Shown here one piece after another: positions 23,414-28,686 of a stretch of 28,686 nt of DNA. A program made the translations under genes and the position numbers. The notes under the pieces are model-generated. The model made no database searches. It worked only from the letters and a program-made list of their open reading frames with translations, and had not been told where the DNA came from. This stretch comes from a virus. The stretch's first letter is position 1. Each line of letters opens with the position of its first letter. The DNA is taken from positions 1 to 28,686 of IMG/VR virus record IMGVR_UViG_3300011253_000726. One strand, given 5' to 3'.

Positions 23414-23742
23414 TTATTAAGTATTTAGTATGTATAATTGTATACTCTATATACTTACATATATATAGCGATATTTACAAGTGAATAAGATAGAGAAAAA
23501 GTGACACAAGGGTGCTACTATATACTTATAACTACCTATTGTCACTAAAATTAAAAAAACGTTACAAATATAGGGCAGTAGTGCTCCCCCTCACTTTTTT
23601 CTTTGCTTTTTTCCAGGAAAACTCAACTTTTTAACACCAACCCCACCACTTTTTCACACAGTTTACAACTATATATACAACTTTTACAAACAAATCATTA
23701 AAACATTTGGATAATATAAATGTAACTAATAAAAACTATACA
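23414..23742. other. Divergent AT-rich junction between leftward and rightward blocks
   Basis: No convincing gene lies here. On the + strand a pyrimidine-rich tract runs from about 23583 to 23660. It begins with a short imperfect hairpin (GGGCAG … CTCCCC, about 23573-23588) followed by T-runs, which looks like an intrinsic terminator for rightward RNA. A 7-bp inverted repeat, AGTGACA (23500-23506) and TGTCACT (23540-23546), lies to its left. On the - strand TATATTTG (complement of 23565-23572) fits the Bacteroidota -7 consensus TAnnTTTG, but I see no matching -33 TTTG. The first bipartite promoter (23684-23716) closes the region. A replication origin here is conceivable but unsupported. Confidence 0.5.
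23684..23716 (+). promoter_or_regulatory. Bipartite promoter-like element, copy 1
   Basis: TTACAAACAAA at 23684, then 14 bases, then GGATAATA at 23709 (continuing TAA). It is the first of six copies with identical 25-nt box-to-box spacing. The next start codon is at 23743, 34 nt after the second box begins. It sits at the head of the rightward block. Confidence 0.75.
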
Positions 23743-23838
23743 ATGTTAAACAAACTATTCAAACTTCACATTAAATTCTTACAATTACTAATATTAATAT
23801 CATTACCAACTGTAATAGTACATATTATAATGTCATAA
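23743..23838 (+). CDS. Tiny hydrophobic protein (31 aa)
   Basis: The reading frame starts at ATG 23743 and stops TAA at 23836-23838. It encodes MLNKLFKLHIKFLQLLILIS and then LPTVIVHIIMS. It has a basic N-terminus and one hydrophobic stretch (about 13-30), so it would be a single-span membrane peptide. Support comes from the bipartite promoter 34 nt upstream, not from homology. It would be the first product made from the rightward block. A chance frame in AT-rich DNA cannot be excluded. Confidence 0.45.
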   Translation: MLNKLFKLHIKFLQLLILISLPTVIVHIIMS

Positions 23839-23857
23839 TGTCATGACACAGTGACAT
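23839..23857. repeat. Hairpin/direct repeat copy A: TGTCATGACA-N3-TGACAT
   Basis: The palindrome TGTCATGACA (23839-23848), 3 nt, then TGACAT (23852-23857), directly follows the stop codon of the 31-aa ORF. ATGTCA (23838-23843) can pair with TGACAT. The same arrangement recurs at 24217-24235, after the next gene. Confidence 0.6.
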
Positions 23858-23915
23858 GTTGCGTCATACTATCATCACATTATCACTATATAAATAATAC
23901 TACACTTGTATAAAC

Positions 23916-23948
23916 TTACAAACAAACTACATAACTAACTGGATAATA
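23916..23948 (+). promoter_or_regulatory. Bipartite promoter-like element, copy 2
   Basis: TTACAAACAAA at 23916, 14 bases, GGATAATA at 23941. The following ATG is at 23981 (40 nt), the longest leader among the six. The eight bases before box 2 (AACTAACT) are identical in copy 4. Confidence 0.75.
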
Positions 23949-23980
23949 ACTATATAATAACTAAATAAATAATAATAACT

Positions 23981-24208
23981 ATGTCAACTTTAAATTCTAA
24001 AAGATTTGTAATCAGAAAATCACTAATTGGTAAAAACCAAATCATTAACTTCACTAACAAAAAAGGTATCACTATTGAATACAATCATGATATTGCTTAT
24101 GAAATCATGAAAGATAAATTAAACTCTATGAATTGTTTCACTAAGTATAAATCTTACACTTCATCTAATAATATTCCAGTAATACTAAGAGATAAAGAGT
24201 TAGTGTAG
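23981..24208 (+). CDS. Hypothetical early protein (75 aa)
   Basis: It encodes MSTLNSKRFVIRKSLIGKNQ, then INFTNKKGITIEYNHDIAYE and a basic C-terminal half, ending ILRDKELV. It is soluble and Lys/Asn-rich, with one cysteine. I recognise no domain. It has its own promoter-like element and ends 21 nt before the first tRNA-like element. A TGTCATGACA repeat lies just before and just after its transcription unit. Small basic early phage proteins often act on host machinery; nothing here shows which. Confidence 0.65.
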   Translation: MSTLNSKRFVIRKSLIGKNQIINFTNKKGITIEYNHDIAYEIMKDKLNSMNCFTKYKSYTSSNNIPVILRDKELV

Positions 24209-24216
24209 TGACAAAC

Positions 24217-24235
24217 TGTCATGACAATCTGACAT
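24217..24235. repeat. Hairpin/direct repeat copy B: TGTCATGACA-N3-TGACAT
   Basis: TGTCATGACA (24217-24226), 3 nt, TGACAT (24230-24235). It is the same two-part unit as at 23839-23857, 378 nt away. The TGACAT half also serves as the 5' acceptor-like strand of the tRNA-like element at 24230-24269. Confidence 0.6.
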
Positions 24236-24269
24236 AATGGTTAGTAGTGGTTCGATTCCACTCATGTCA
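24230..24269 (+). ncRNA. Minimal tRNA-like element 1 (40 nt, no anticodon arm)
   Basis: TGACAT (24230-24235) pairs with ATGTCA (24264-24269). Between them lie AATGGTTAGT, which resembles a tRNA D-loop, and a perfect T-arm: AGTGG, TTCGATT, CCACT (24246-24262). The B-box consensus GGTTCGANNCC is met. The anticodon arm and variable region are absent, so this cannot be a conventional tRNA. No CCA is encoded. It lies 16 nt before the ATG at 24286. A pairing alternative for the 3' strand is TGACATG at 23852, 7 bp perfect but more than 400 nt away. It may be a decayed tRNA, a tRNA-mimic or an RNA-processing signal. Confidence 0.5.
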
Positions 24270-24285
24270 ACTAATAATAAATAAT

Positions 24286-24423
24286 ATGATATACACTTTA
24301 ACTTGTGAAAATGGTAAAGAAATCAATATGACTTCTTATATAATCCAACAAATGGAAAAGAAAATAACTAGACAAGATGTTCTTGACAGAATAGAATTCT
24401 ATAAATCAACTAATAAACTATGA
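24286..24423 (+). CDS. Small hypothetical protein (45 aa)
   Basis: It encodes MIYTLTCENGKEINMTSYII, then QQMEKKITRQDVLDRIEFYK and a short tail. The second half reads as one amphipathic helix. There is no known family. The start lies 16 nt downstream of tRNA-like element 1. The stop TGA overlaps the ATG of the next gene (ATGA), which argues that the frame is real. Confidence 0.55.
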   Translation: MIYTLTCENGKEINMTSYIIQQMEKKITRQDVLDRIEFYKSTNKL

Positions 24424-24563
24424 AAAGAGACTTATACAGATTTGCAAAAGCAAGACAAAGAGATCCACTATTTAAAATAAGTAAACAACAAATAGAAGCA
24501 ATGGAAAGAGCATACTGGTTAAAGTATAATAATTACAAACAAAATCAAATGTTAAATGGATAA
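24420..24563 (+). CDS. Small basic hypothetical protein (47 aa)
   Basis: It encodes MKRDLYRFAKARQRDPLFKI, then SKQQIEAMERAYWLKYNN, and is helical and strongly basic. It overlaps the preceding gene by ATGA. Its last codons (NYKQNQMLNG) coincide with promoter-like copy 3, so the end of the protein is constrained by the DNA element. No function recognised. Confidence 0.55.
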   Translation: MKRDLYRFAKARQRDPLFKISKQQIEAMERAYWLKYNNYKQNQMLNG

Positions 24564-24565
24564 TA
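24533..24565 (+). promoter_or_regulatory. Bipartite promoter-like element, copy 3
   Basis: TTACAAACAAA at 24533, 14 bases, GGATAATA at 24558, embedded in the 3' end of the 47-aa gene. The next sensible start is ATG 24571, only 13 nt after box 2 begins, so a transcript from here would be nearly leaderless. This decides against the earlier in-frame ATG at 24556, which lies upstream of box 2. Confidence 0.75.
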
Positions 24566-24570
24566 ATAAT

Positions 24571-24789
24571 ATGAATATACAAACTACATACAATGATAAA
24601 TTCCAATGCAACTGGTATCACTGTAAAATCAAAAATGAGACATTCTCTTCCCCTCGTATGAAAGATGTCGAAGAGTGGCGCGAAGACAAAATAGTCAATG
24701 CAAAACACTATGATGAATTACAAGTGCTACATGACAAAGCAATGCAACATATGTATAATACTAACCCAACTAATTACACAGGAGACTAA
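24571..24789 (+). CDS. Hypothetical early protein (72 aa)
   Basis: With the start at ATG 24571 it reads MNIQTTYNDKFQCNWYHCKI, then KNETFSSPRMKDVEEWREDK and an Asn-rich tail ending TNYTGD. Using ATG 24556 would add MDNNN, but those codons are the GGATAATAATAAT of the promoter-like element. There are two cysteines and no membrane segment. The stop overlaps the next ATG by one base. No family recognised. Confidence 0.6.
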   Translation: MNIQTTYNDKFQCNWYHCKIKNETFSSPRMKDVEEWREDKIVNAKHYDELQVLHDKAMQHMYNTNPTNYTGD

Positions 24790-24971
24790 TGGCAAAAATG
24801 AAACAACTAGATGAAATGGCAGAAAAGCTAGTTCCTCAAATACTACACAAAATATATAATACAGTAAATACTGAAATAGCATATAGCGATCTTGATCTTG
24901 AAGGTGATCAAATTAGTGATGCTCATGATTATGTAATGACACTCGTAATAAATAAATTAATAAACAATTAA
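24789..24971 (+). CDS. Small acidic hypothetical protein (60 aa)
   Basis: It encodes MAKMKQLDEMAEKLVPQILH, then KIYNTVNTEIAYSDLDLEGD and DAHDYVMTLVINKLINN, predicted as two or three helices. No domain is recognised. It overlaps the upstream stop by one base. It is followed after 5 nt by a membrane-anchored small protein, and part of the short leader of that gene (ACAATTAAA) encodes its last residues. Confidence 0.6.
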   Translation: MAKMKQLDEMAEKLVPQILHKIYNTVNTEIAYSDLDLEGDQISDAHDYVMTLVINKLINN

Positions 24972-24976
24972 ATAAT

Positions 24977-25183
24977 ATGGATAAAAGAAAAACAATTGCA
25001 CTAGCGTGCTTAGTATTTATCGGTGGTTACTTCGCAGGTAACACAAATGGTAAACAACAAAAGGTAGATGAAATACTAACTACTATGAATGAAGTACAAT
25101 TAGATTGGTATCATTGGCAAGATATGGCAGACATTGTAGAAAGCAAATCAATTCATGGTGATGTAATTGTAATCGGTGAATAG
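24977..25183 (+). CDS. Small membrane-anchored protein (68 aa)
   Basis: The basic N-terminus MDKRK is followed by a hydrophobic segment (about 6-21, TIALACLVFIGGYFAG). A polar domain follows with a Trp/His-rich centre (LDWYHWQDMADIVE). The layout suggests an uncleaved N-terminal anchor with the rest outside the cytoplasm. It is the first of three consecutive overlapping genes whose products all have an N-terminal export-type segment. No family is known to me. Confidence 0.6.
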   Translation: MDKRKTIALACLVFIGGYFAGNTNGKQQKVDEILTTMNEVQLDWYHWQDMADIVESKSIHGDVIVIGE

Positions 25184-25457
25184 TCTTGTTATTGCGCTAG
25201 CAATATCCTTAACAGGACAAGTAGATGACAAAGTGTGTTACAAAAAATGCACACGTCATAACGATGATGTAATACACTTAGATGTTAAATATCACCCTGA
25301 CGGTATATTTCAAGACCCTCAAGACAGAATAAAAGAATGGATCTGTCAAGGTGAAGGCGAAGGCTTTAGACATACTATATCAAGTAAATTAACCTGTGAT
25401 GGTAGTAACCATGAAGGAGGTGATGGTAATAAAGGCGAGTGTTATGTCTGCTTCTAA
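25176..25457 (+). CDS. Small secreted Cys-rich protein (93 aa), GTG start
   Basis: It starts with GTG at 25176, overlapping the previous gene by 8 nt; there is no in-frame ATG nearby. The N-terminus MNSLVIALAISLTGQ looks like a short signal peptide. The mature part has six cysteines (CYKKC, EWIC, LTC, GECYVC), suited to disulfides outside the cytoplasm, and a Gly-rich C-terminus (HEGGDGNKGECYVCF). No family recognised. The absence of ATG and lack of a clear leader lower confidence somewhat. Confidence 0.55.
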   Translation: MNSLVIALAISLTGQVDDKVCYKKCTRHNDDVIHLDVKYHPDGIFQDPQDRIKEWICQGEGEGFRHTISSKLTCDGSNHEGGDGNKGECYVCF

Positions 25458-25668
25458 AACTATAAAACTATTAATACTTATAGCTCTATTGTCATATAGT
25501 TGTTATAAGTTAGGACAAGGTAATCCTATAATAGTAGAAAAAACTGTTGAAGTTAAAGTATATGACAAAGGTTTTTGTGTGTCTTGTTTTAAAGAACATA
25601 CTTGGAATGATATGTATGCACTGATGAACACTCATCTTGACTCAATTACAAACAAAACAAACAACTAA
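25444..25668 (+). CDS. Small exported or lipoprotein-like protein (75 aa)
   Basis: The frame is open from GTG 25396, but I prefer ATG 25444, which puts an export signal at the N-terminus: MSASKTIKLLILIALLSYSC, with a possible lipidation Cys (LSYSC, residue 20). A polar domain follows with CVSCF and HTWNDMYALMNTHLD. With this start it overlaps the previous gene by 14 nt. Its C-terminal codons (SITNKTNN) coincide with box 1 of promoter-like copy 4. Function unknown; small early exported phage proteins may serve superinfection exclusion. Confidence 0.55.
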   Translation: MSASKTIKLLILIALLSYSCYKLGQGNPIIVEKTVEVKVYDKGFCVSCFKEHTWNDMYALMNTHLDSITNKTNN

Positions 25669-25678
25669 CTGGATAATA
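25646..25678 (+). promoter_or_regulatory. Bipartite promoter-like element, copy 4
   Basis: TTACAAACAAA at 25646, 14 bases, GGATAATA at 25671 (extended TAATAAACAA, identical to copy 5 over 18 nt). ATG follows at 25694. Box 1 overlaps the end of the preceding coding region. Confidence 0.78.
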
Positions 25679-25693
25679 TAATAAACAAACAAT

Positions 25694-25882
25694 ATGAAAT
25701 GTAAATGTACAGATGTAATACCACAAGGTCGCTTAGCCTTAGGTTATAGAACTTGCGTAAAATGTAGCACCACAGAGCTTTATAGTTATATACCAATTAT
25801 TGGTAACAAACAAGTGCTCGAACTACAAATAGTATCACAAGAACTATCTGCAGCTGTACATAAATCATGGCGTAGAAAATAA
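25694..25882 (+). CDS. Small zinc-ribbon-like protein (62 aa)
   Basis: It encodes MKCKCTDVIPQGRLALGYRT, then CVKCSTTELYSY. Four cysteines (C3, C5, C21, C24) could bind one zinc. I recall similar tiny 'KCxC…IPQ.R..LGY.TC..CS' proteins in many phages, all uncharacterised. The C-terminal half is helical with a basic end (AAVHKSWRRK). It is driven by promoter-like copy 4. Its stop codon directly abuts the first base of tRNA-like element 2. Confidence 0.7.
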   Translation: MKCKCTDVIPQGRLALGYRTCVKCSTTELYSYIPIIGNKQVLELQIVSQELSAAVHKSWRRK

Positions 25883-26003
25883 GGGCGTGAAATGGTATGG
25901 TCACCTAACAGTAAATCGAGGTCTTGGCTTCAAGCTTGTATCAGTTGTACAAAGCCACTCGTAGTGACAGTGATAAACGCAGGTTCGATTCCTGCCACGT
26001 CCA
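25883..26003 (+). ncRNA. tRNA-like element 2 with long hairpin instead of an anticodon arm (121 nt)
   Basis: The acceptor-like stem GGGCGTG (25883-25889) pairs with CACGTCC (25996-26002), 7 bp including one G-U, followed by A. The T-arm is perfect: GCAGG, TTCGATT, CCTGC (25979-25995). The D-side segment contains ATGGTATGG but no D-stem of four pairs. The middle folds into a nested hairpin: GTCAC/GTGAC (25900-25904, 25964-25968), CGAG/CTCG (25917-25920, 25958-25961), TGGCTT/AAGCCA (25925-25930, 25952-25957) and an inner TTGTA/TACAA. This recalls the tRNA-like domain plus P2 of tmRNA more than a tRNA, but no SmpB-type tag frame is evident. An intron-bearing tRNA is an alternative. Confidence 0.55.
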
Positions 26004-26016
26004 CTAAATAATAAAT

Positions 26017-26196
26017 ATGCAAAGAATAAAATTCACATCAAAAACTACCGCTAAAACTAGCGAAGGACTAAAGTATAAAGGTTATGCTGTCGGAGAATTA
26101 CCACCAACATTTGCTTTCATATATAATGAGAACAAAGAAAACTATGGAATTAAAGAGTGGTTTAACTATAAAGGATTAACATGGATAGCAGAATAA
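26017..26196 (+). CDS. Small hypothetical protein (59 aa)
   Basis: It encodes MQRIKFTSKTTAKTSEGLKY, then KGYAVGELPPTFAFIYNENK and ends YKGLTWIAE. Strand pattern suggests a small beta barrel or SH3-like fold, but I recognise no family. It starts 14 nt after tRNA-like element 2, through a spacer (ACTAAATAATAAAT) resembling the one after element 1. It overlaps the next gene by 16 nt. Confidence 0.55.
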   Translation: MQRIKFTSKTTAKTSEGLKYKGYAVGELPPTFAFIYNENKENYGIKEWFNYKGLTWIAE

Positions 26197-26351
26197 TACA
26201 GGATATAGAAATAGTCGAGCGTGAAGCTTGTTATTTAATAGACGTTATAGAAACTACATTAGAACGTATTGTAAACTATAACGATCTTAACGAAAAAGAA
26301 ATTAAGTCCATAAAAGATATGGCAATTATGATGCTCCAAGAATGGAGTTAG
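26181..26351 (+). CDS. Small acidic helical protein (56 aa)
   Basis: It encodes MDSRIIQDIEIVEREACYLI, then DVIETTLERIVNYNDLNEKE and ends MMLQEWS with a TAG stop, rare in this window. It is predicted as an all-helical hairpin. It overlaps the previous gene by 16 nt. Its stop codon lies at the base of the hairpin at 26351-26379. No function recognised. Confidence 0.5.
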   Translation: MDSRIIQDIEIVEREACYLIDVIETTLERIVNYNDLNEKEIKSIKDMAIMMLQEWS

Positions 26352-26379
26352 CTCAACCGCGGCGAAAGCAAAGGTGAGC
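26351..26379 (+). other. Structured RNA hairpin upstream of tRNA-like element 3
   Basis: GCTCA-A-CC (26351-26358) pairs with GGTGAGC (26373-26379), seven pairs with one bulged A. The loop holds a GCGAAAGC mini-hairpin with a GNRA tetraloop. No T-run follows, so it is not an intrinsic terminator. CTA-GAAA-TAG, another small GNRA hairpin, follows near 26384. The whole interval 26351-26510 may be one RNA. Confidence 0.45.
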
Positions 26380-26423
26380 ACATGCTAGAAATAGGAGACA
26401 AGAGTCACACTAACTAGCTGATT

Positions 26424-26510
26424 AACTAGGTATGGTTTATATAGTTCTAAAAAGAGGTGCTCTATATGCGACTACTGACGAGTATTGAGGTTCGATTCCT
26501 CATCTAGTTA
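26424..26510 (+). ncRNA. tRNA-like element 3 (87 nt)
   Basis: AACTAGG (26424-26430) pairs with TCTAGTT (26503-26509, one G-U), followed by A. The T-arm TGAGG, TTCGATT, CCTCA (26486-26502) is perfect. The 5' side continues TATGGTTT, matching the ATGGT in the other two elements. The interior can form ATATAG/CTATAT around a 17-nt loop, or AGAG/CTCT, but no 5-bp stem with a 7-nt U33 loop, so no anticodon is readable. The 3' end overlaps box 1 of promoter-like copy 5 by three bases (TTA). A divergent long-variable-arm tRNA cannot be ruled out without a covariance-model search. Confidence 0.5.
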
Positions 26511-26540
26511 CAAACAAAATACGACAACAATCGGATAATA
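26508..26540 (+). promoter_or_regulatory. Bipartite promoter-like element, copy 5
   Basis: TTACAAACAAA at 26508, 14 bases, GGATAATA at 26533 (extended TAATAAACAA as in copy 4). ATG follows at 26555. Its first three bases are the 3' end of tRNA-like element 3. Confidence 0.78.
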
Positions 26541-26554
26541 TAATAAACAATAAT

Positions 26555-26803
26555 ATGCTAATAGACCAAATCAAACCAGAAATTTTATTAAAACTAGACA
26601 AAGACTACGAAAAGTATAACACAAGTATAAATCATATATACAATGTGTTAGCTACTAAAGAAGTGTATGCTCAATTAACTATTGACGAAATCAAAGATAT
26701 ATTTACATTTGCTAGTTTAGATTATTTGGACTACTCGCCATCAGATATACTGTTTGGCGACAGAATGCTAAAACAAGATTACAATTACAAATACGGAAAA
26801 TAA
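26555..26803 (+). CDS. Hypothetical early protein (82 aa)
   Basis: It encodes MLIDQIKPEILLKLDKDYEK, then a helix-rich, Tyr/Asp-rich sequence (YAQLTIDEIKDIFTFASLDY) ending QDYNYKYGK. No domain is recognised. It has its own promoter-like element 22 nt upstream and is followed after 19 nt by a 174-aa gene whose leader carries TAACAATTAAA. Confidence 0.65.
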   Translation: MLIDQIKPEILLKLDKDYEKYNTSINHIYNVLATKEVYAQLTIDEIKDIFTFASLDYLDYSPSDILFGDRMLKQDYNYKYGK

Positions 26804-26822
26804 CAATTAAATTAAATAAACT

Positions 26823-27347
26823 ATGTCAGACTCAATTAAAAAGTACGAAGAACTGTACGACAACAAGCTGGAAGAAAAAATGATCAGCAAAGGCTTCGGT
26901 GAAAAAGATTCACACGATGAAGAACACGTAATGAAAGTAGTGTGTAAACACTTCGATCTAGAATTAACAGATACATGGCAAAACGACTGTGATCACTACA
27001 TATACGAAGAAAGTACAGCCGATGGTTATACTGTGTATGTAAGTTTACATGATGCTAACGCAAACGTGTGTGTAAGTGAAAACATATTCTATTACGACAA
27101 CGATCTTGCACAAGAATTTACTCAAGCTATATATGACAATGATCATGGTAATGTTAAAATATACTTATCTATGCTACATGACGGTGAATATTGGATTGAA
27201 GATGCTATCAGAGAAATTTACATTAGTTTAGTAGAATTATACACTGATATGTGTAAAGACGAGCTAACAGATGAGGGTTGGACAGAACTTACTGACTTAA
27301 GTACTCAACCATCAACAGATATGTTAAACTTAATAGCAAATAACTAA
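26823..27347 (+). CDS. Acidic hypothetical protein (174 aa)
   Basis: It is strongly acidic (many Asp/Glu) with an ordered alternation of helices and strands. MSDSIKKYEELYDNKLEEKM is followed by MKVVCKHFDLELTDTWQND, YTVYVSLHDANANVCVSEN, IRFIYISLV-like helices (IREIYISLVELYTD) and a Thr/Ser tail. Four cysteines are spread out (HDANANVC, KVVC and others). No catalytic motif is obvious. High acidity would suit a DNA-mimic inhibitor, but nothing specific supports this. It starts 11 nt after TAACAATTAAA. Confidence 0.68.
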   Translation: MSDSIKKYEELYDNKLEEKMISKGFGEKDSHDEEHVMKVVCKHFDLELTDTWQNDCDHYIYEESTADGYTVYVSLHDANANVCVSENIFYYDNDLAQEFTQAIYDNDHGNVKIYLSMLHDGEYWIEDAIREIYISLVELYTDMCKDELTDEGWTELTDLSTQPSTDMLNLIANN

Positions 27348-27348
27348 T

Positions 27349-27819
27349 ATGAGTACTAGAAACGTAACTATGGTAGTCCATAGACAAGAAGCAGAAAAAT
27401 ATGTAAAAGGTTTTGCAATAGAACCAAGTGAAATAGCAGACAAAAGCTACGTAAATATGTATTTACACCATGACGGTTACCCTGAATACCAAGGTGTTCA
27501 AACAGCTATGTGGATTAAGCACATGCAAGATGATAAAGGTTTTAATAATTTTGGCGATGGCTCAAGAATTGCATCTCATTTAGTTAAAGACATGCACTAC
27601 AATGCACAATATTTATATCCTAGTGTAGACAATATTGATCATCAATATACTTATATTATATGGGTAGGTAAGTCTGATCCTTGGATAAGTATCTATAATC
27701 AACATACGTCAACTTGTATGTTTGTTGGTACGCCTGATAAACTTGTAGAAAAATATTTAAATTCTGATATGGAATATACAGACTGGAATTACAAACATAA
27801 TACAAACAAAGCTGGATAA
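27349..27819 (+). CDS. Conserved phage protein of unknown function (156 aa)
   Basis: The N-terminus MSTRNVTMVVHRQEAEKYVK and the block VNMYLHHDGYPEYQGVQTAM followed by DGSRIASHLVKDM and YTYIIWVGKSDPWISIYN mark a family I recall from cyanophages and other marine phages, always uncharacterised. It is a compact alpha/beta protein with conserved His/Asp/Tyr residues (HHDGYPEY) that could be an active site. The start follows the upstream stop by one base. The C-terminal residues NYKHNTNKAG coincide with promoter-like copy 6. Confidence 0.75.
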   Translation: MSTRNVTMVVHRQEAEKYVKGFAIEPSEIADKSYVNMYLHHDGYPEYQGVQTAMWIKHMQDDKGFNNFGDGSRIASHLVKDMHYNAQYLYPSVDNIDHQYTYIIWVGKSDPWISIYNQHTSTCMFVGTPDKLVEKYLNSDMEYTDWNYKHNTNKAG

Positions 27820-27821
27820 TA
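27789..27821 (+). promoter_or_regulatory. Bipartite promoter-like element, copy 6
   Basis: TTACAAACATA (one mismatch to the consensus) at 27789, 14 bases, GGATAATA at 27814. ATG follows at 27827, only 13 nt after the start of box 2, so the transcript may be leaderless. It lies inside the 3' end of the 156-aa gene. Confidence 0.72.
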
Positions 27822-27826
27822 TACAT

Positions 27827-28087
27827 ATGACAGACAGACAAATCGAACAAATGGCAATACGTGTAGCAGACATAGTTATACAAGCTCTAGAAGACAAGCA
27901 GCAAGAGTGGGATAAAGCTCTCGTTGCTGATCTTCATGAGCAAAATACCGAGCAACAACTATTGGCTCAATTAGCTACAGCTATGACTCAGCTAGACTTT
28001 GCTCTTAGCAATGAAGACTACACAAAATGTGCAGAACTAAAACAACAAATACTAAACATAGAAAACCAATTAAACAAATATAAATGA
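27827..28087 (+). CDS. Helical protein with UVR-like C-terminal motif (86 aa)
   Basis: It encodes an amphipathic helical N-terminus (MTDRQIEQMAIRVADIVIQA). A C-terminal segment, LDFALSNEDYTKCAELKQQI (about 56-75) plus LNIENQLNKYK, fits the UVR motif of UvrB/UvrC and related proteins (ALxxEDYexAAeLrdxI). That motif is a helical hairpin for protein-protein contacts in DNA repair. The stop overlaps the DNA ligase start by four bases (ATGA), supporting a DNA-metabolism role as partner or regulator. The UVR assignment is by eye. Confidence 0.65.
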   Translation: MTDRQIEQMAIRVADIVIQALEDKQQEWDKALVADLHEQNTEQQLLAQLATAMTQLDFALSNEDYTKCAELKQQILNIENQLNKYK

Positions 28088-28686
28088 TAAAACCAATGCT
28101 AGCATACAAAGTTGACTCAAAACCAGTCGACTGGACTAAAAAAGTCTACATGCAACCAAAACTTGACGGCGTACGCTGTGTAATCCAACTTAATGACAAA
28201 GGCGAAGTATATGCATACTCTCGTACAGGTAAACCGTGGCTAAATATTAACCACATACTAAAAAACCTTAAACCTTTCTTTGATACGTATGAAGACGCTA
28301 TACTCGATGGCGAGTTATACAACCACGATCTACGTGATGACTTTGAAAAGATTATATCTCTTGTGCGTAAACAAAAACCTACAGCAGATGATAAAGCTGA
28401 ATCTAAAAAGCTAGTACAGTTTCATTGTTATGACTATGCTAACGGTTCTGACAATTATTCAACACGTCAGTACAACCTTGCAGAGTTTGTAGAAGATGAT
28501 CTATATTCTTATTGTGTTAAATATGTACCAACGTATCTAGTTAACAAGCACGAAGAAGCTCTAGACTTACATCACAATGCTTTTCTACCTGACGGCTACG
28601 AAGGCTCTATATTACGTCTTGACGGTCCTTATCAGTGCAAGCGTTCTTATAACTTACAAAAGTTTAAAGACTTTCACGATGCCGAA
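28084..28686 (+). CDS. ATP-dependent DNA ligase, N-terminal part, runs off the right edge
   Basis: The first 201 residues are present, starting MIKPMLAYKVDSKP. Nucleotidyltransferase motifs are clear: motif I QPKLDGVR (nucleophile K26), motif III LDGELYNH (about 75-81, E77), motif IV GYEGSILR (about 171-178) and motif V CKRSYNLQKFK (K186/K193). The enzyme adenylates its lysine with ATP and seals nicks in replicating phage DNA. The lack of an N-terminal DNA-binding domain fits the small phage/virus ligases. The OB-fold domain lies beyond the window. It is coupled to the UVR-motif gene by ATGA. Confidence 0.92.
   Translation, partial: MIKPMLAYKVDSKPVDWTKKVYMQPKLDGVRCVIQLNDKGEVYAYSRTGKPWLNINHILKNLKPFFDTYEDAILDGELYNHDLRDDFEKIISLVRKQKPTADDKAESKKLVQFHCYDYANGSDNYSTRQYNLAEFVEDDLYSYCVKYVPTYLVNKHEEALDLHHNAFLPDGYEGSILRLDGPYQCKRSYNLQKFKDFHDAE

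Follow-up and report, generated by a model that had tools for sequence, protein, structure and literature searches.

Organisation of the window and copies of the element

The 28,686-base IMG/VR virus record IMGVR_UViG_3300011253_000726, analysed over its whole length and referred to below as the window, carries a leftward arm encoding terminase, GroEL, holin and tail-fibre-like proteins and a rightward arm that begins with small open reading frames (ORFs). These are followed by a DNA ligase gene (28084..28686, + strand), which is cut by the window end and is the first gene of the arm with a recognisable role in replication. A two-part, promoter-like element, TTACAAACAAA-N14-GGATAATA, recurs along the rightward arm and is the subject of this report. 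A literature search found nothing relevant on this motif or on any described promoter of these phages.

Exact copies of the element start at 23684, 23916, 24533, 25646 and 26508, all on the + strand; a further copy at 27789, on the same strand, has a single mismatch, its first box reading TTACAAACATA. An earlier note on this DNA had reported six copies of a bipartite promoter, all of which are present, but only five are exact. The invariant spacing that it described was confirmed, the box-to-box distance being 25 nucleotides (nt) in 6/6 copies. The exact motif did not occur in any of 100 dinucleotide shuffles of the window, and sites with up to three mismatches averaged 0.06. The right arm has six occurrences of GGATAATA on its + strand, and neither strand of the left block has any; for TTACAAACAAA the counts are five in the right arm and a single, isolated one in the left block. 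The claimed confinement to the rightward genes thus holds, and neither chance nor a comparable frequency in the late block explains the copies.

The copies at 24533, 25646 and 27789 run into the 3' ends of ORFs, with frame offsets relative to the motif of 2, 1 and 2. Because these three copies stand in differing frames, the constraint is not on protein, in line with the earlier view that it acts on DNA or RNA. The 14 intervening bases had been described as variable; this is only partly so, since a six-base box, ATACRA, and a T before the GG are conserved in relatives, although ATACRA is complete in just two of the copies in the window.

Conservation in relatives and the predicted start site

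Exact matches to the motif occur in 97 viral-contig stretches, and a scan of viral contigs with TAATACGA-N9-GATAATATAA returned at least 120 stretches. All ten fully read relatives share the terminase with the window at 72–97% identity, the value for the 66-kb genome G016 being 97%. In each of them the exact or variant motif is restricted to the first 5–10 kb of the non-structural arm, on a single strand. The arm of G016 encodes ligase, a DNA-binding protein, a 203-amino-acid helix-turn-helix (HTH)-like protein, a sigma factor, Erf, exonuclease and primase-helicase, and continues with thymidylate synthase, MazG, resolvase and ribonucleotide reductase; in relatives the sigma gene lies about 2 kb beyond the ligase. 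This gene content suggests that the motif-bearing arm is expressed early or in the middle of infection.

The earlier assignment to crAss-like phages did not stand. At E 1e-5 the terminase relatives are all phages of Flavobacterium, Cellulophaga, Tenacibaculum or Maribacter, plus MW202828, and their taxonomy lines give Elemovirus and Pervagoviridae. The nearest named relatives are these and other Flavobacteriaceae podoviruses, which does not place the phage in Crassvirales. The outgroup MW202828.1, which lacks the motif, carries about 14 copies of a palindrome, GTGTCGTTAACGACAC, that may be an operator or terminator of its own.

Pooling of 700 non-redundant sites gave the family consensus TTACAAnnTAATACGA-N9-GATAATATAAnTR, and 253 non-redundant sites resembling the window type gave TTACAAACAAA-ATACRA-N7-T-GGATAATA. 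The invariant core is GATAAT, and the G preceding it is lineage-specific. Two relatives seemingly devoid of the motif have the variants TTCGAAnnTAATACGA and TTACAAnnnAATACGA, each followed by N9-GATAATAT. To obtain sites from loci picked independently of the motif, 80 loci were fetched by their sigma gene; here the spacing was N9 at 194 sites, N8 at one and N10 at one.

In a numbering that takes the G of GATAAT as +1, 697 of the 700 pooled sites have a purine at +13, in a background low in G, and +12 is mostly T. Across the 80 sigma loci an ATG begins at +13 in 47 of 194 sites, compared with three at +12 and one at +14; 46 of the 47 open ORFs of at least 40 codons, and the genes concerned belong to 12 unrelated families. 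An ATG at +11 is directly followed by a stop codon in 37 of 39 cases, and it therefore reflects start-site context rather than a gene start. These sites belong to a second main class in which +11 to +16 read NTGTAA; any base occurs first, the constant part being TG, with its G at +13. An interpretation of "ATGTAA" as a start-stop upstream ORF was dropped once the larger sample had revealed this.

Transcription starting at the +13 purine would be the simplest account of these patterns. Placing the start there puts GATAAT at -12 to -7, and the hexamer then has the features of a -10-like element: A at -11, T at -7 and a purine start about 7 bp past its last base. Since the ATGs are phase-locked to the +13 base, many of the messenger RNAs should be leaderless.

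Start positions in the window were derived from this family-wide purine. Copy 1 (23684..23716) has a predicted start at 23722 (G), the next ATG, at 23743, opening a 31-codon ORF, and copy 2 (23916..23948) a predicted start at 23954 (A) ahead of a gene at 23981. Copy 3 (24533..24565) overlaps the 3' end of the ORF at 24420-24563, and its predicted start, 24571, coincides with the A of the ATG that opens a 72-amino-acid ORF, which would be leaderless. For copy 4 (25646..25678), which overlaps the end of the preceding ORF, the start is predicted at 25684 and the gene begins at 25694; for copy 5 (26508..26540), which has the full extended motif with ATACGA, the corresponding positions are 26546 and 26555. 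Copy 6 (27789..27821), with its mismatch in box 1 and the middle box ATACAA, overlaps the end of the ORF at 27349-27819. Its predicted start, 27827, falls on the A of the ATG with which an 86-amino-acid gene, again predicted to be leaderless, begins, and it is the nearest promoter candidate upstream of the DNA ligase gene and, in relatives, of the sigma gene.

Candidate readers of the element

To assess phage specificity, the motif core was sought in 257 Gb of prokaryotic (bacterial and archaeal) genome sequence, where only six contigs carried it, as against the at least 120 stretches of viral contigs. Because the motif is common in phage DNA and almost never found in bacteria, a phage-made factor must read it. 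Flavobacterial sigmaA requires TAnnTTTG at -12 to -5 (PMC9723704, PMC6847099); the element has GATAATAT at that place, so the earlier statement that it is not the Bacteroidota TTTG/TAnnTTTG box holds. Canonical TTTG/TAnnTTTG pairs were about as frequent as in reversed controls, which, together with the genome scan, rules out a host promoter.

Every complete relative encodes a 250-amino-acid sigma70-family protein with regions 2, 3 and 4, regions 2 and 4 lying in a single open frame as in phage sigma factors. It matches PF04542 above the cut-off (30.8 bits), PF04545 below the cut-off in G016 and above it in G031, phrog_351 at E=3e-22 and RpoD profiles from the PDB at 2e-8, and its fold matches SigA/RpoD. 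A search of the named-phage collection at E 1e-5 did not recover the protein. One scan located its gene in 95 viral-contig stretches. It is present in 21 of 24 motif-bearing contigs, the remaining three ending close to the motif cluster; motif site counts from this contig scan, which allowed three mismatches, are lower bounds. Neither motif nor sigma was detected in the outgroups MW202828, phi38:1 and elemoA.

Three sigma-bearing loci that first appeared motif-less proved informative. Two of them, L402 and L406, have CACGGACTT as the upstream box, exactly 16 nt before GATAATA, with the -10 and the start context unchanged, and L397 contains CACGGACTT-N16-GATAATA once. The third, L417, has the -10 variant GATATTA and keeps the upstream box (TTACAA..ATACGA). 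As each half has been replaced without the other, the upstream box and the -10/start module evolve separately, which fits two recognition surfaces.

Together, these results support well the view that the element is a real, phage-specific and modular promoter whose start can be predicted to the base; the scan of relatives, with its 700 sites and start-base signature, upholds the earlier description of it as promoter-like. Regarding mechanism, we lean towards an early/middle promoter used by the host core polymerase under the direction of a phage factor, most probably the conserved 250-amino-acid sigma. GATAAT would act as the -10 element, and transcription would begin at the purine 12 nt past its G, an ATG at that point giving a leaderless gene. 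The upstream box TTACAAnnTAATACGA (-38 to -22) would stand in for a -35 element; since it can be exchanged with no change in the -10/start module, a second DNA-binding surface or protein probably recognises it, in the way that the MotA box is recognised in T4 middle promoters. A host core plus a phage factor is likely, and the sigma encoded in the same arm appears the best single candidate for that factor. The proposal builds on the observed motif, spacing, start signature, phage specificity, co-occurrence with sigma and box swap; from these we infer the start, the recogniser and the timing.

Several observations weigh against this proposal. The main uncertainty comes from a second promoter-like element, GTAAA-N15-GTAAGTATATA (23448..23478, - strand), before the first leftward (late) gene. 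The late strands of relatives carry GTAAA-N15/16-GTRASTATATA (N16 19 times and N15 twice in the spacing count), which is nearly absent from the early strand and from reversed controls, and this late motif could be the real target of the sigma factor. All six starts in the window are predictions, the rigid spacing is unusual for sigma promoters, and the co-occurrence of motif and sigma comes from one clade only. Since the motif cluster precedes the sigma gene, the loop must be set off by something else. Sigma region 4.2 is near-invariant across genomes that differ in the upstream box and so does not account for it; recognition of the box may fall to another protein. Sigma residues covary with the base before GATAAT no more clearly than residues of other arm proteins do: in a comparison of sigma and HTH proteins sigma ranked first, though not clearly, and the signal is confounded by phylogeny. 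An apparent tracking of motif type by sigma residue 53 was dropped, as D53 is present in ACAA-type genomes too.

We regard it as unlikely that the host RNA polymerase, with the host or an appropriated sigma, uses the element with the help of a phage activator bound at the upstream box, the phage sigma then serving the late arm only. The position of the box (-38 to -22), its exchange without a change in the -10 and the separate late-arm motif would suit this arrangement, and a conserved 203-amino-acid HTH-like protein is encoded directly 5' of sigma in 78 of 80 loci. However, GATAATAT does not offer sigmaA its TAnnTTTG (PMC9723704, PMC6847099), host genomes lack the motif, and no residue of the HTH protein clearly changes in step with the box swap.

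It is less probable still that the reader is delivered in the virion, as a giant late-arm protein (2,000-3,900 amino acids; L201 11048-19246 in G016) with a sigma-region-2-like fold or with an unrecognised RNA polymerase inside it, which would account for early use without prior synthesis. In the structural model, residues 1142-1243 of the G016 protein fold like sigma region 2: VIA-align gave Z up to 8.3 over 92 residues with a root-mean-square deviation of 3.1, nearly all of the top 50 matches being sigma factors, and Foldseek matched RpoS region 2 with probability 0.98. The Foldseek E-values are weak, however (E=0.43 for that match), a Z of about 8 is not decisive for helical folds, and comparison of the segment with the phage sigma profile gave P=0.066. 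Sequence comparison recovers the segment in no more than three of 11 giant proteins (G016, G002 and G008), yet the promoter core is conserved, and Pfam and PHROGs searches detected no RNA polymerase family among the searched proteins of the complete close relative G016, including the giant protein. A combined scheme, in which the modelled domain of a giant virion protein injected with the DNA would read early promoters, thereby supplying the host polymerase with a phage promoter-recognition module ahead of all phage gene expression, and the free phage sigma would then take over for later genes, seems slightly more doubtful again. The G016 giant protein also carries HExxH and HAD-like FDFDDTLA motifs.

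The earlier note had favoured the phage's own RNA polymerase. A single-subunit, T7-like enzyme would suit the rigid spacing, and TAATACGA, nine nucleotides and an invariant G reproduce the 5' part of the T7 promoter and its spacing. This reading is very improbable: PF00940 was absent from some 30 relatives (0 of 30 relatives' records, with a T7 positive control at E=1e-109), and no consistent DxDxD or SRD/HDE signature emerged. The element exceeds a T7 promoter in length and has no counterpart of its conserved -9 to -1 segment, these positions being mostly variable, and phase-locked ATGs and a purine occur 12 nt further on; the likeness of TAATACGA is probably a coincidence. The geometry fits a sigma-programmed multi-subunit polymerase instead, and all complete relatives encode a sigma. 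Least probable of all is an operator or RNA element (a regulator site or leader), which would suit the proximity of part of the motif to the start codon and the inverted copies TTACA and TGTAA at its two ends, but has to contend with three of six window copies lying in upstream ORF ends and leaves the promoter geometry and start-base signature unexplained.

Putative structured RNAs of the early arm and comparison with known systems

Among the early genes, the window also encodes a 121-nt RNA resembling a transfer-messenger RNA (tmRNA) without the tmRNA body (25883-26003, + strand), with counterparts in relatives (L374 4655-4730, L380 3733-3804 and L400 5005-5130) and 29 distinct sequences among relatives that fit the search pattern. 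It has an acceptor stem with a G3-U70 pair, a D-like segment and a T arm. The window copy scores 34.4 bits (E 1.4e-11) against the Rfam tmRNA model, which falls short of the gathering score (47); an ORF for a tag was not recognised, and ARAGORN calls nothing in the window. A hypervariable insert pairs with itself, its own stem averaging 5.9 bp as against 3.4 across sequences. We speculate that this RNA may act as a decoy, with SmpB, AlaRS or trans-translation as its target. Two further 3' halves of transfer RNA (tRNA)-like structures, with T arm and acceptor, lie just 5' of early genes on the + strand, at 24204-24264 (a weak Rfam tRNA score of 17 bits) and ~26420-26512 (no Rfam score).

For a large group of uncultivated marine phages, the element provides a predicted base-exact start map and an easy means of early-gene annotation. 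Promoter and sigma form a pair that can be tested in vitro, and the exchange of the upstream box in some relatives, with the -10/start module retained, amounts to a natural experiment on changes in phage promoter specificity. Should the sigma-like domain of the virion protein be involved, this would explain how transcription gets under way in such phages when they bring no polymerase in the virion.

A close parallel is found in T4 middle promoters, which combine a MotA box near -30 with a sigma70 -10. They share with the element a phage-specific design with a dedicated upstream box near -30 that replaces the -35, plus a -10 box, but the match to an activator box near -30 is one of position only. 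GATAAT is not the host -10, and the 17-nt box is rigidly spaced and varies by clade. Neither MotA nor AsiA was named in PHROGs and Pfam scans of the large G016 proteins, in which no dedicated search for them was made. The 250-amino-acid protein, with its regions 2, 3 and 4 in complete relatives, resembles the phage sigmas of phrog_351. Phage sigma70-family factors often serve late genes, whereas the predicted promoter described here lies in the early arm.

The virion RNA polymerase of crAss-like phages is comparable in that both proposals concern early transcription in phages of Bacteroidota; here, the searches turned up no polymerase of that kind, and the terminase does not mark the phage as crAss-like. 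With the Bacteroidota sigmaA promoter the element shares a -10-type element whose first base is at -12 and a transcription start further downstream, but it differs in having GATAATAT rather than TAnnTTTG and a strong upstream box. The predicted share of leaderless starts is also higher, about 24% of sites here compared with 5.5% of Flavobacterium psychrophilum messenger RNAs (PMC9723704).

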